Part shown: in pieces, positions 36,881-41,013 of the stretch
Numbering within the stretch: the first letter of the stretch is position 1
Layout of the letters: each line of letters begins with the position of its first letter
Source of the DNA: Marinifilaceae bacterium
GTDB taxonomy: Bacteria; Bacteroidota; Bacteroidia; Bacteroidales; Marinifilaceae
Direction of reading: 5' to 3'
Length of the DNA stretch: 64,000 nt
Assembly (NCBI GenBank): GCA_025210485.1
Contig: JAOARN010000003.1
Location: 1-64,000 of the forward strand
Position numbers and translations under genes: made by a program
Notes under the pieces: model-generated
What the model saw: the letters and a program-made list of their open reading frames with translations, nothing else
Databases searched by the model: none
What the model was told of the DNA's origin: nothing

Positions 36881-38152
36881 ATGAAGTATAGAGCATATAC
36901 TCTGAAAACATTTAAAGATATTCCACAGATTTCTAAATTGACCCCTGAAGAAATATTTGATATTGAAGTTGTAGGTGAAGTTTTACCATTTAAGGTAAAT
37001 AACTATGTTGTAGATAATTTGATTGATTGGGAAGATGTGAAGAATGACCCTATCTTTAAATTAACTTTTCCTCAAAAGGGTATGCTCTCTGAAGAAAGAT
37101 ACAATGCAATGGCTGATCTTATCAGAAATAAAGCTAGCCGCGAAGATATAAGAGAGCTTTCAAATAAAATTAGACTTGAATTAAATCCAAATCCAGCAGG
37201 TCAGGCACATAATGTTCCTGTGCTTAATGGTGAGAAACTGGACGGAATTCAACATAAGTATAACGAAACTATGCTATTCTTCCCTTCTCAGGGGCAGACT
37301 TGTCATGCATTTTGCACCTTTTGTTTTAGATGGCCTCAATTTACAAATCTTGATGGGCATAAATTTGGAATGAAAGAGGTGGAGCATTTAATTGAATACT
37401 TGAGACAAAATCCACAAATCACAGATTTACTTTTTACAGGAGGTGATCCGATGGTTATGAAAGCTACAAGTTTCAAATCATATATAGATGCTATTCTGGC
37501 AGCTGATTTAAAAAGTTTGAAAACCATTCGAATAGGAACAAAAACTTTAGGATATTGGCCTTATAGATATACAAATGATGCTGATTCAAAGGAATTATTA
37601 GATGTTTTTAAATCTATTACCGATGCAGGATTAAACCTGTCTGTAATGGCACATTTCAATCATATAAATGAGCTTAAGACTGATGTTGTTTTGGAGGCCA
37701 TAAAAAATATTAGAGAAACAGGAGCTATTATAAGAACTCAATCTCCAATCATGAAACATCTTAATGATGATGCTGATATGTGGGCAAAAATGTGGAGGAA
37801 GCAGGTTGATTTAGGAATGGTTCCATACTATATGTTTATCGCACGTGAAACAGGAGCTCAGGAATATTTTGCAATTGATTTGGAATCAGCTTGGCAAATA
37901 TTTAGGAAAGCATACTCACAGGTTAGCGGCGTTTGCAGAACAGTTAGAGGACCTAGTATGTCTGCTACTCCTGGTAAAGTTCAAATTTCAGGTATTACAG
38001 AAATTAATGGAGAGAAAGTATTTGTACTCAATTTTATTCAGTGTAAGAACGCCGAATTGGTAGGAAAACCATTTTTTGCTAAATATAAAAGCGATGCTTT
38101 ATGGTTGGATGATTTAGAACCAGCTTTTGCGGATAAATTTATATATCAGTAG
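36881..38152 (+). CDS. KamA-family radical SAM aminomutase-like protein
   Basis: A 423-aa radical SAM protein with the cluster motif C141-x3-C145-x2-C148 in QTCHAFCTFCF and the TGGDPMVMK (GGE-like) SAM-binding strand. The overall frame matches a lysine/glutamate 2,3-aminomutase-like branch that starts 'YRAYTLKTFKDIPQI' and is distinct from the lysine-fermentation KamA. The substrate is unknown; candidates are production of a beta-amino acid as osmolyte or antibiotic part. EpmB-type modification of EF-P is less likely because EpmB proteins are shorter. The gene stands alone with its own terminator. Confidence 0.8.
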   Translation: MKYRAYTLKTFKDIPQISKLTPEEIFDIEVVGEVLPFKVNNYVVDNLIDWEDVKNDPIFKLTFPQKGMLSEERYNAMADLIRNKASREDIRELSNKIRLELNPNPAGQAHNVPVLNGEKLDGIQHKYNETMLFFPSQGQTCHAFCTFCFRWPQFTNLDGHKFGMKEVEHLIEYLRQNPQITDLLFTGGDPMVMKATSFKSYIDAILAADLKSLKTIRIGTKTLGYWPYRYTNDADSKELLDVFKSITDAGLNLSVMAHFNHINELKTDVVLEAIKNIRETGAIIRTQSPIMKHLNDDADMWAKMWRKQVDLGMVPYYMFIARETGAQEYFAIDLESAWQIFRKAYSQVSGVCRTVRGPSMSATPGKVQISGITEINGEKVFVLNFIQCKNAELVGKPFFAKYKSDALWLDDLEPAFADKFIYQ

Positions 38153-38161
38153 TATATATAC

Positions 38162-38195
38162 TAAAAGAAGCTGTCATTGTAGACAGCTTCTTTTA
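38162..38195. terminator. Bidirectional terminator between kamA-like gene and the CDP-glycerol transferase gene
   Basis: A perfect 14-bp stem taaaagaagctgtc / gacagcttctttta (38162-38175 with 38182-38195), a 6-base loop and a T-run to the right. It covers the 3' end of the minus-strand gene. Confidence 0.92.
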
Positions 38196-39239
38196 TTTTT
38201 TTATTTTTCCGAATATTTTTTTAGATTTTCTTCTTCTCAGGAAACTGAGTTTTCTATTTTCAGGGACACCGTTCTCAGAAATATATTCAACTACTGCGTC
38301 AACCATTCTTTTTGAGCTATTCCCATCTATATATGGATCATAATTATTAACTATCCATTTGCGTTTGTCTATATATTCTTGGTCGTCCTGAACTTGATCA
38401 TATGCTTCTGTTATTTCATCTATTTCTTTTATATCCTTCCAATATAGATTTTTTCCTATTGTGTTATAGGTGATAACAGGTTTATCTAAAAGTAAGAATT
38501 CATAAATAACCGAAGATGTGTCAGAAATCATAATGTCTGCAGCTATTAAATATCTAAGTATATTAGTATCTTCAATATATAAGATATTTTTATTTTCCTT
38601 AGCTAGTTTTCTGTATTTAGCCTTTAGTTCGTCTGATGTTTTATCGTGAAGTTTAACCAATACTAGACATTCACGCTCTTTAACAAGTTTCTCCAAACCA
38701 ACATTCATATCAAAAGCTGATGTGCATGATGGAGAGAATGTAGGAGCATAAAGTACAATCTTTTTCTTATTAGAATCTGATAATAATTTATTTTTGTAGT
38801 CTGAATAAAGATTCAAGCTTTTGTAGACTGTATCTTGCCTAGACCATCCAGTTTCAACTACCTTGAAATTTTTATGTTTCTTTTCTAATTTTTGAAATTC
38901 CTTAGTGAAAAATGGACCTTGAGTCAAGTACATGTCAAAGTAGGACCTAATCCTAAACTGATCACCTTTTTCAGCAGCATAGCCATGAAAAACACTTACT
39001 TTTACCCCTGAGAGATAGTACGGAATAGAGTTCCCAGGAGCAAATATCATATCAGGTTTCAAATTATATATTTCCTGCATAGAGCAGGTGTATTTGTATT
39101 TGCCTTTGTATGGAAATTTATCTTCGATACCAGATTTTAAAAACCATATAGTTTCAATATCTCTTGATTGAAGTTCTAGGCAAATGGGTTCTAAAATTGA
39201 AAAAGAATAAGGCTGCTGACAGAGTAATACTGCTTTCAT
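38193..39239 (-). CDS. CDP-glycerol glycerophosphotransferase-like protein (TagB/TagF family)
   Basis: A 348-aa GT-B-like polymer transferase. The C-terminal CDP-binding half has the family pattern VLYAPTFSPSC, LVLVKLHDKT, ILRYLIAADIMISDTSSVIYE and LLDKPVITYNT. The family transfers a phosphate-linked alcohol from a CDP donor to a glycan or lipid carrier, as in teichoic acid synthesis. In a Gram-negative genome it more likely decorates an O-antigen or capsule. It follows the aminotransferase gene by 3 bases in a three-gene operon that also encodes a CDP-forming-type nucleotidyltransferase, so the donor is probably made by the neighbours. The exact donor is unknown. Confidence 0.8.
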   Translation of the reverse strand: MKAVLLCQQPYSFSILEPICLELQSRDIETIWFLKSGIEDKFPYKGKYKYTCSMQEIYNLKPDMIFAPGNSIPYYLSGVKVSVFHGYAAEKGDQFRIRSYFDMYLTQGPFFTKEFQKLEKKHKNFKVVETGWSRQDTVYKSLNLYSDYKNKLLSDSNKKKIVLYAPTFSPSCTSAFDMNVGLEKLVKERECLVLVKLHDKTSDELKAKYRKLAKENKNILYIEDTNILRYLIAADIMISDTSSVIYEFLLLDKPVITYNTIGKNLYWKDIKEIDEITEAYDQVQDDQEYIDKRKWIVNNYDPYIDGNSSKRMVDAVVEYISENGVPENRKLSFLRRRKSKKIFGKIKK

Positions 39240-39242
39240 TAA

Positions 39243-40115
39243 TTATCTAATTTTTTTTATTTCCTTAGCAAGATTTTCATAATCAGAAGTTTTTTCAACA
39301 TAGGTGAATATCTGAGTTTTATGACCTTGAACATGTGATCCATATAAATTGTATTTAAGACACAATTCATTAGGAATTATTCCATCCTTGATTGTAAGTA
39401 CAGGACATCTTCTATCTCCTATTATATTTTCTTCACCTATAGCATCTACGATTAGGTCGGAATGAAGATTGATTTCATTTCTGCATTCTGTTAGATCGAA
39501 GGCTTCAAGTTTTTGAAGAAAATCATCATAAAGAGCCATTGCTGGGGTATGATGAGTTTGAAATATAGAATCCGATTTCAACATTCGTGATACATTCATG
39601 TATGAGAATACATCCGTTGAGATTAGATCAGGGTATATTTCTCTATCAATAACTAAAATACCAAGAACAGGTGCAGCTCCTAGAATTTTACTTGAAACAG
39701 TTGCCCATGCTTTTGCATTTTTTGGAATATCATAATATGGAAATGCCGAAACTGCATCGACAAAGTAAGGATTGTCAAATTTGTTAACTGTTGAACAAGA
39801 TGTCTCCAATTGAATCATAAGAGATTTATCAGAATCGGAATCTAATTTATTATATGTTTTTAATAGTTGATTCCATCTAGAGTTAAACTCTCCTTCCACT
39901 CCTACAATCTTTAACTTGTGATTTGTAGAATAAATAAAAGATTCAACAGCAAGAGTACCACTGCCTGTTATTATTAATATTTCGTAGTTCTCAGGAATGC
40001 TAAATTTCTCTCTGAATATTTTTTTAATAGATTTTATCTTGTCAAAAAATATTGGTTCTCTGTGATGAGAATTTATTATTCCTGAATAGTTAGTGCTTTT
40101 ATTTGGACCGAACAT
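39243..40115 (-). CDS. Class V aminotransferase (2-aminoethylphosphonate:pyruvate / alanine:glyoxylate aminotransferase-like)
   Basis: A 290-aa fold-type I PLP enzyme. The GSGTLAVES phosphate-binding turn (residues 51-59), D120 in FVDAVSAFPYYDIP for the pyridine nitrogen and K143 in VSSKILGAAP for the Schiff base are all present. At 290 residues it is shorter than the usual 360, with a trimmed C-terminal domain. The start overlaps the nucleotidyltransferase gene by 17 bases, and the transferase gene follows by 3 bases. Its relatives include PhnW, which acts with the PntC cytidylyltransferase in phosphonate decoration, but no phosphonate-forming PepM is in the window. A conventional amino-alcohol or aminosugar substrate remains possible. 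Confidence 0.72.
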   Translation of the reverse strand: MFGPNKSTNYSGIINSHHREPIFFDKIKSIKKIFREKFSIPENYEILIITGSGTLAVESFIYSTNHKLKIVGVEGEFNSRWNQLLKTYNKLDSDSDKSLMIQLETSCSTVNKFDNPYFVDAVSAFPYYDIPKNAKAWATVSSKILGAAPVLGILVIDREIYPDLISTDVFSYMNVSRMLKSDSIFQTHHTPAMALYDDFLQKLEAFDLTECRNEINLHSDLIVDAIGEENIIGDRRCPVLTIKDGIIPNELCLKYNLYGSHVQGHKTQIFTYVEKTSDYENLAKEIKKIR

Positions 40116-40803
40116 CTTTATTGATTATTTCATTTACGTAGTTTAGATCTTCTTTAAAGTCTACTTCTACACAATTATATTGGGATATATCTAAGGCTTG
40201 GAATTTTACATTATCTTTTTTGATAGATTCTTCCATTCCTTTTTCGTAATAGTCGTTAGCATCACATTCCTGAAGTCTGTTAATAAGAGTTTTGATGTCT
40301 TTTGATGAAATGAAATTCATGCCAACAGCCTCTCCTAATCCATTTTCAACTTCTTTGGAAATTTCCGCTATATTATGTTCTTCATCTAAGGTGTATTTTA
40401 CCTCTTCTTCTCCAACTTTTGAATTGTTAACTGCTGCGAAAGAAATATTCTGATCAATTTTTGTTTTAAAAAGTTTGATTATTTCTTTATCAAAAACAAC
40501 ATCTCCATCAAACCACAATACAGAATCCTCTGGGAATTTTATTAATGCCTTTAGTAAGCTTTTAGAGGTGTTGGTTTGATCAAATATATTATTATAAATA
40601 AAGTTTGCTTCTGGAAAAGCATCCATTATTAAGTCTTTTTTAAAGCCTACAACGATGCTAATATTTTCGATTGGAATTATCTCTGATAGATTTTCAATCT
40701 GCTGTTGCATGATAGTTTTACCATTAGCTAAAGGAGTAAGTGGTTTAGGGAAAGGGTTTCCTAGTCTGGATCCAATTCCTGCCGCTAAAATTACTGCTCT
40801 CAT
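40099..40803 (-). CDS. LicC/PntC-like nucleotidyltransferase (CTP-dependent sugar/alcohol phosphate type)
   Basis: A 234-aa nucleotidyltransferase. The signature LAAGIGSRLGNPFPKPL (with K20) binds the nucleotide. D99-G-D101 in WFDGDVVFD and the aspartate in CVEVDFKEDL provide the metal site, the pattern of choline-phosphate and 2-aminoethylphosphonate cytidylyltransferases. It would activate a phosphate or phosphonate head group with CTP. It is first in the operon with the aminotransferase and the CDP-glycerol transferase-like gene, and has a full consensus promoter 180 bases upstream. A sugar nucleotidylyltransferase activity cannot be ruled out. Confidence 0.75.
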   Translation of the reverse strand: MRAVILAAGIGSRLGNPFPKPLTPLANGKTIMQQQIENLSEIIPIENISIVVGFKKDLIMDAFPEANFIYNNIFDQTNTSKSLLKALIKFPEDSVLWFDGDVVFDKEIIKLFKTKIDQNISFAAVNNSKVGEEEVKYTLDEEHNIAEISKEVENGLGEAVGMNFISSKDIKTLINRLQECDANDYYEKGMEESIKKDNVKFQALDISQYNCVEVDFKEDLNYVNEIINKDVRSK

Positions 40804-40981: not shown

Positions 40982-41013
40982 CAAATATAAACTTTATACA
41001 GATAAAAATCAAA
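40982..41013 (-). promoter_or_regulatory. Consensus promoter for the nucleotidyltransferase operon
   Basis: On the minus strand: TTTG (41013-41010), a 20-base spacer and TATATTTG (40989-40982). Both boxes match the phylum consensus. The predicted transcript would begin in a CAA-repeat (complement of 40968-40981) and have a leader of roughly 170 bases. Confidence 0.7.

Follow-up and report, generated by a model that had tools for sequence, protein, structure and literature searches.

A three-gene cassette in a Marinifilaceae genome that may place a phosphorylated amino alcohol on a surface glycan

What do three tightly packed genes in the genome of a Marinifilaceae bacterium (GenBank assembly GCA_025210485.1) make, and where is the product attached? 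The genes lie on the minus strand at positions 38193-40803 of the window, by which we mean the first 64,000 nucleotides of contig JAOARN010000003.1, and they encode a nucleotidyltransferase, a protein resembling class V pyridoxal phosphate (PLP) enzymes, and a PF04464 transferase. The original prediction, which was made from the DNA sequence alone, read this set as an undescribed route in which a head group is activated with cytidine triphosphate (CTP), transaminated, and transferred to a surface glycan, and it pointed to a link with phosphonates by way of the aminotransferase PhnW. Its overall logic stands: the gene families suggest CTP activation, a PLP-dependent step, and transfer to a surface glycan. 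So, within the assembly and the papers searched, do its remarks that phosphoenolpyruvate mutase (PEP mutase, or PepM) is missing and that the arrangement is undescribed; the link to PhnW is not supported, and the exact triad is not conserved. Our best reading of the sequences is that the cassette is a nonphosphonate variant of the LicC/PntC logic, and we give an even chance to the proposal that it makes a phospho-amino-alcohol (ethanolamine phosphate or serinol phosphate) and transfers it to a surface glycan. The cassette comprises:

40099..40803, minus strand: LicC/PntC-like nucleotidyltransferase of 234 amino acids (P0003); PF12804 match of 53.3 bits against a cut-off of 27; AF2 model with a predicted local distance difference test score (pLDDT) of 91.7
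40507..40509, minus strand: codon 99 of the nucleotidyltransferase gene; it encodes Asp at the amine-contact position, which aligns with Glu104 of PntC from Treponema denticola (Tde-PntC)
39243..40115, minus strand: short, divergent class V-like PLP protein of 290 amino acids (P0002); hhalign probability of 97.2% to a class V alignment and 67.4 bits to a six-member class V profile
38193..39239, minus strand: PF04464 (CDP-glycerol-type) phosphotransferase of 348 amino acids (P0001); 82.2 bits against a gathering cut-off of 22.1; match to TarL (8va1) with E = 2e-8; member of a PLP-linked clade with support of 100/99

The coordinates of the open reading frames (ORFs) confirm the place, strand, and packing that had been described: the nucleotidyltransferase and PLP-protein genes overlap by 17 bases, and 3 bases separate the PLP-protein gene from the transferase gene. 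The family calls for the transferase and the nucleotidyltransferase also hold at the scores given above.

Relatives of the cassette and of its transferase

We scanned for relatives with the window's nucleotidyltransferase and one relative, and we based our counts on the best 80 of 145 loci. In 79 of these 80, a PF04464 transferase gene directly follows the nucleotidyltransferase gene (with a gap of -59 to +12 bases), and the 80th leaves its contig. None of the 80 has the middle gene, so the exact triad is not conserved. The neighborhoods resemble loci for the core of lipopolysaccharide (LPS): a GT2 cluster is present in 57, a LicD-like cluster in 40, and a TagD-like cluster in 33 (names were taken from genome G380 and by eye). 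GT2 adjoins the transferase or is fused to it, and LicD and the Kdo/WaaP kinase family are also present. No matches came from viral sequences scanned with alignments of the two enzymes, the transferase and the nucleotidyltransferase.

In a first tree, the window's transferase grouped with those of G055 and G093. In both of these genomes, the genes upstream of the transferase include one for a HisC-like PLP enzyme and one for a nucleotidyltransferase from a different LicC/PntC-like subfamily. A profile of these three transferases found further members in the order sample: G206, G165, and G194. In G206, which belongs to the window's own family, the transferase gene is the last of three consecutive genes, each overlapping the next by 4 bases; the first two encode a PhnW-like class V enzyme and a TagD-like cytidylyltransferase, and a gene of the Kdo kinase family comes after the three. 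G165 has the same three kinds of gene along with LicD, and in G194 the transferase gene shares a short contig with a LicD-like one.

These six transferases form one clade (support of 100/99), and five of the six have a gene for a PLP enzyme in the cluster. The PLP enzymes are of three types: the class V-like protein of the window, HisC-like (G055 and G093), and PhnW-like class V (G206 and G165). The cytidylyltransferases are also of three kinds: LicC-like from the subfamily of the two-gene pairs (window), other LicC/PntC-like (G055 and G093), and TagD-like (G206 and G165). Of 83 loci in the other branch, none carries a class V or HisC-like gene in the flanks covered; for 68 of the 80 scanned loci, these flanks extend at least 3 kb to either side of the nucleotidyltransferase gene. 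Thus, the lack of a conserved triad, which the original prediction had listed as evidence against itself, describes the exact gene set and not the module of PLP enzyme, cytidylyltransferase, and clade transferase, which recurs. One transferase clade with three types of PLP enzyme and three types of activating enzyme is a clear case of parts being swapped around one chemical logic.

The clade also has its own residues: Y87, A89, D93, Q135, T201, and D301 are found in all six members, and position 89 is Gly and position 301 is His in 80 of 80 others. In the order sample, 8 of 247 genomes encode either type of transferase at 400 bits or more, of which 6 have the PLP-linked clade and 2 have the pair type. 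An approximately unbiased (AU) test rejected placing the window transferase with the two-gene group of Bacteroidales (p = 0.003), for a tree with long branches and groups that were named after the first tree was seen.

We also recorded some variants around these transferases. The transferase ORF exceeds 600 residues in 34 of the 80 loci (L058:8684-10525 and 33 other loci of L056-L135); in G380, the one fusion examined, the extra part is a C-terminal GT2 domain. The fusion hints that a glycosylation step comes right after transfer of the head group. In Flavobacterium sp. 11 (L121:8688-9721), the transferase gene is broken into two ORFs. In G055, a PIN-domain-like gene and a small partner, identified by eye, lie between the HisC-like gene and the nucleotidyltransferase (L164:9570-10312).

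The nucleotidyltransferase and its residue 99

Foldseek ranked LicC first for the confident AF2 model of the nucleotidyltransferase (E = 8e-16), with the PntC-AEPT fusion among the next matches. By the VIA table, PntC and LicC rank level with chains of the GlmU and GalU types (Z of 24 to 26), so structure alone does not settle the subfamily. When a profile of the nucleotidyltransferase group was compared to solved sequences, PntC and LicC were the best matches (E = 4e-30 and 3e-27). R13, K20, and K150 of the window's protein align with the catalytic R15, K25, and K153 of Tde-PntC, and the protein carries the GXG(T/S)R...PK motif and the equivalent of Lys153 that mark members of the PntC group. 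The Tde-PntC study (PMC6697681) names the catalytic residues and describes Glu104 as contacting the amine of 2-aminoethylphosphonate (AEP), with Glu196 as a second contact.

Both contacts have acidic equivalents in the window. Glu196 corresponds to Glu187, which is invariant across the subfamily. Glu104 aligns with Asp99, at a position that contacts the amine in the PntC and LicC structures; this position is Asn in all 83 distinct relatives within the subfamily (the 80 loci plus G380, G198, and G097). Outside the subfamily, Asp or Glu is found at this position in 25 of 25 nucleotidyltransferases with a detected PLP neighbor or fusion: 20 have an adjacent HisC-like gene and 5 have a fused aminotransferase domain.

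Some of these distant loci have features of their own. Fusions of a nucleotidyltransferase to Aminotran_1_2, with Glu at the position of Asp99, occur at L149:1501-3306, L150:421-2232, L151:1501-3312, L152:1393-3321, and L155:121-1863; the L152 fusion comes from G194, whose clade transferase has no PLP gene beside it. A HisC-like PLP gene lies within about 0.8-1.1 kb of an acidic-type nucleotidyltransferase at L025:1480-3658 and L028:1-2232, and also at L026, L027, L029, L138, L140, L144, and L145. In L025 and L028, the intervening gene resembles, by eye, a CDP-alcohol phosphotransferase; if so, the same logic would exist there in a lipid-type version.

The middle protein and competing explanations

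The middle ORF has 0.31 bits per codon in frame, a negative value in each of the other two sense frames, and a GC content of 0.308. The in-frame value falls inside the span of 14 reference genes of the window (0.246-0.499 bits per codon); therefore, the ORF is coding. The other frames show no sign of a frameshift at its C terminus. Pfam gave no match to the protein: the PF00266 gathering score was not reached, and the protein is not in its own genome's PF00266 list. The class V models of NCBIfam matched weakly. Profile comparison, at the scores given above, supports membership in class V. The PLP Lys (K143) and Asp (D120), which are invariant in both class V alignments, are retained. A single-sequence AF2 prediction reached a pLDDT of only 34.7, so the fold assignment comes from sequence profiles.

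Several observations weigh against a role for this protein in making an amino head group. It has 290 residues, as compared to about 350 in its relatives, with large in-frame deletions; it had been described as about 70 residues short, and it is indeed shortened, by about 60. The C-terminal Arg that is present in all four aligned class V relatives is replaced. In class V PLP enzymes, this Arg has a role in binding the carboxylate of amino acids; the activity of a shortened protein without it may be altered or lost, which is the chief doubt about our reading. No close relative of the protein was found in plasmids, phages, viral contigs, or genome contigs, or in 247 order, 395 phylum, and 345 class genomes. 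It scores 18.3 and 13.4 bits against the G206 and G165 enzymes, versus 36.7 bits for a SerC-like protein. Other points concern the cassette and its relatives: the cassette does not adjoin LPS genes, and G194 (on a 5.3-kb contig) lacks a class V or close HisC-like gene; it has an AspC-type aminotransferase about 440 bases away, which we did not count. Finally, among 25 distant nucleotidyltransferases for which no PLP partner was detected, 15 are also acidic at position 99 (for most, the flanks covered about 1.5 kb). A tree-aware test of Asp99 against PLP partners, with 69 nucleotidyltransferases, gave 4 supported independent pairs, of which 1-2 were concordant and 0 discordant, and was not significant. 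Much of the association outside the subfamily is explained by relatedness, and the change from Asn to Asp in the window is a suggestive single event.

Weak matches to the middle protein were found in 1 of 247 order, 15 of 395 phylum, and 6 of 345 class genomes (these samples overlap, and the protein's own genome was left out of the numerators). Those that were inspected are SerC/serine-pyruvate-type enzymes. The single match in the order sample was rejected: it is not class V, and it crosses a stop codon. Viral contigs gave no homologues for a better alignment.

First, the middle protein might be a degenerate or noncatalytic relative of class V enzymes, with the working unit being the two-gene pair and the head group being that of the relatives, such as glycerol phosphate. 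We consider this unlikely but worth serious weight. It fits with the 79 of 80 relatives in which the pair occurs without the middle gene, and with a protein that is short, has no close relative, and has lost the conserved Arg. On the other hand, the PLP Lys and Asp are retained and the coding statistics are normal; also, the transferase is in the PLP-linked clade and the amine-contact position differs from all 83 relatives. The sequences suggest that the PLP protein, though not conserved in the relatives of the pair, is still part of the pathway, because the transferase clade is linked to PLP enzymes (5 of 6 versus 0 of 83) and because Asp99 replaces a uniform Asn.

Second, the substrate of the PLP protein might be a different sugar or amino compound in the surface glycan; the protein would then share only the operon, and the head group would carry no amine of its making. 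PLP enzymes are common in glycan loci, and the cassette is away from other glycan genes, both of which favor this explanation. However, the transferase clade is repeatedly linked to three types of PLP enzymes, and the Asp99 change also points to the head group. We view this explanation as rather improbable.

Third, we considered a 2-aminoethylphosphonate cassette of the PntC-AEPT kind, with its PEP mutase hidden in the unassembled 6% of the genome. The order of a nucleotidyltransferase and then a class V PLP protein mirrors the PntC-AEPT fusion of T. denticola, and the class V enzymes of G206 and G165 have their best score with the PhnW-AepZ model, below its cut-off. In line with the original prediction's remark on PepM, no PEP mutase scored above the cut-off in the genome of the window, whose assembly is 94% complete, in any of the 8 genomes with pairs, or in G206, G165, G194, G106, and G133. 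The only match to PF13714 in the window's genome, a weak one, is PanB (20.3 bits versus a cut-off of 31.5), and G093 is borderline (31.5 bits). The search does work, since it detected a fusion of nucleotidyltransferase, cytidylyltransferase, and PEP mutase in G111. The proposed tie to PhnW is not supported either: the middle protein scores 19.4 bits against the PhnW model (TIGR03301), whose cut-off is 360.8. Without a PEP mutase over the cut-off in this genome or in those of relatives, a phosphonate route is unlikely within the limit of a 94% complete assembly, and we rate this third explanation as very improbable.

Proposed pathway and surroundings

If the three genes act in one pathway and the PLP protein is active, as we infer, then this enzyme would supply or chemically alter a small phosphorylated amine, e.g., ethanolamine phosphate or serinol phosphate. 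The LicC/PntC-like enzyme would couple the phosphorylated amine to cytidine monophosphate (CMP), probably with CTP as the donor and with Asp99 and Glu187 facing the amine, and the PF04464 transferase would move the phospho-head group to the glycan. Given the gene context of the relatives, the acceptor is most likely the LPS core of the outer membrane. There is a precedent in Bacteroidales: the core of Porphyromonas gingivalis is reported to have phosphoethanolamine and glycerol (PMC13086638).

A more specific and doubtful idea is that the clade uses CDP-serinol. The PLP enzyme would convert dihydroxyacetone phosphate (DHAP) to serinol phosphate; a cytidylyltransferase of the glycerol-phosphate type (TagD-like in G206 and G165, LicC-like with Asp99 in the window) would activate it; and a CDP-glycerol-type transferase with a changed pocket would place amino-glycerol phosphate on the LPS core, with the PLP enzyme and the cytidylyltransferase having been swapped several times around one clade. 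CDP-serinol is the 2-amino analogue of CDP-glycerol, so this would be a zwitterionic replacement of a glycerol-phosphate substituent. LPS phosphoethanolamine is usually drawn from phospholipid in the periplasm. If the proposed pathway is correct, Bacteroidota would have a second means of placing positive charge on the surface, with an amino head group delivered through a cytoplasmic CDP route, and this would bear on how these bacteria tune their surface charge. The question of the substrate can be tested directly through residue 99 of the nucleotidyltransferase and the residues particular to the transferase clade.

The cassette resembles four known systems, and it differs from each. The LicC/lic phosphocholine pathway (LicC of Streptococcus pneumoniae; PDB 1jyk/1jyl) shares the cytidylyltransferase fold, an Asp at the amine-contact position, and the logic of activation and then transfer, but its transferase is LicD instead of PF04464, and the PLP protein is particular to the cassette. 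(One LicD-family gene is present elsewhere in the window's genome.) In PntC phosphonyl tailoring, including the T. denticola PntC-AEPT fusion (6pd1/6pd2; PMC6697681), a nucleotidyltransferase is likewise followed by a class V PLP protein and the catalytic Arg, Lys, and Lys are conserved, but the window's genome has no PEP mutase over the cut-off and the cassette's PLP protein is far below the PhnW cut-off. TagF/TarL-type transfer from CDP-glycerol or CDP-ribitol uses the same transferase family; in contrast, the cassette's transferase is short, its relatives are in LPS-type loci of Bacteroidota, and the clade residues Y87, A89, D93, T201, and D301, found in 6 of 6 members, lie beside the conserved motifs. 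Finally, PLP enzymes also supply phospho-amino-alcohols for the Campylobacter capsule, likewise a surface glycan: Cj1437 makes serinol phosphate from DHAP and Cj1436 makes ethanolamine phosphate from phosphoserine (PMC11800397). There, the amine is joined through an amide bond by Cj1438, whereas we propose CTP activation and phosphodiester transfer for the cassette.

In the open-access literature that we searched, which mostly leaves out subscription papers, we found no description of this combination of genes, in line with the earlier label of undescribed. The literature search also gave nothing on CDP-linked decoration of the LPS core of Flavobacteriaceae. PMC3210612, PMC12871550, PMC11199400, and PMC5156936, as far as consulted, add nothing on the gene set of the cassette.

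The window's genome seems to contain a separate CDP-polyol cassette: on contig C27 (L055:5784-8263), a fusion of IspD and a short-chain dehydrogenase, which we take to be of the CDP-ribitol-synthase type, lies by another PF04464 transferase and an ORF that, by eye, resembles O-antigen ligase.

The neighbors of the three-gene cassette are ordinary genes for a KamA-family radical SAM protein (convergent), a class IV aminotransferase, and a protein with DUF2797; the cassette is thus on its own. No RNA families or tRNAs were found in the window. Two candidate signals flank the cassette:

40982..41013, minus strand: candidate promoter of the Bacteroidota type by pattern match (TTTG-N20-TATATTTG), lying about 180 bases upstream of the nucleotidyltransferase gene
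38162..38195, no strand assigned: hairpin between the cassette and the KamA-like gene that converges on it; identified by terminator scan and fold (z of -7.9)

The original prediction placed the cassette behind a consensus promoter. A scan for sigma-70 promoters gave 23 sites, compared to 19.7 +- 4.6 in shuffled sequences, which is no excess, and so the claim is reduced to the Bacteroidota-type site. The pattern of this site, which we take to be the consensus for such promoters, occurs 12 times in the window, with 6.0 expected, and the site at 41013-40982 is a weak candidate. The hairpin is strong by both the terminator scan and the fold, and it contains the stop codon of the transferase gene. 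The KamA-family gene (36881-38152) scores below the cut-offs of the named aminomutases and has this hairpin in common with the cassette.

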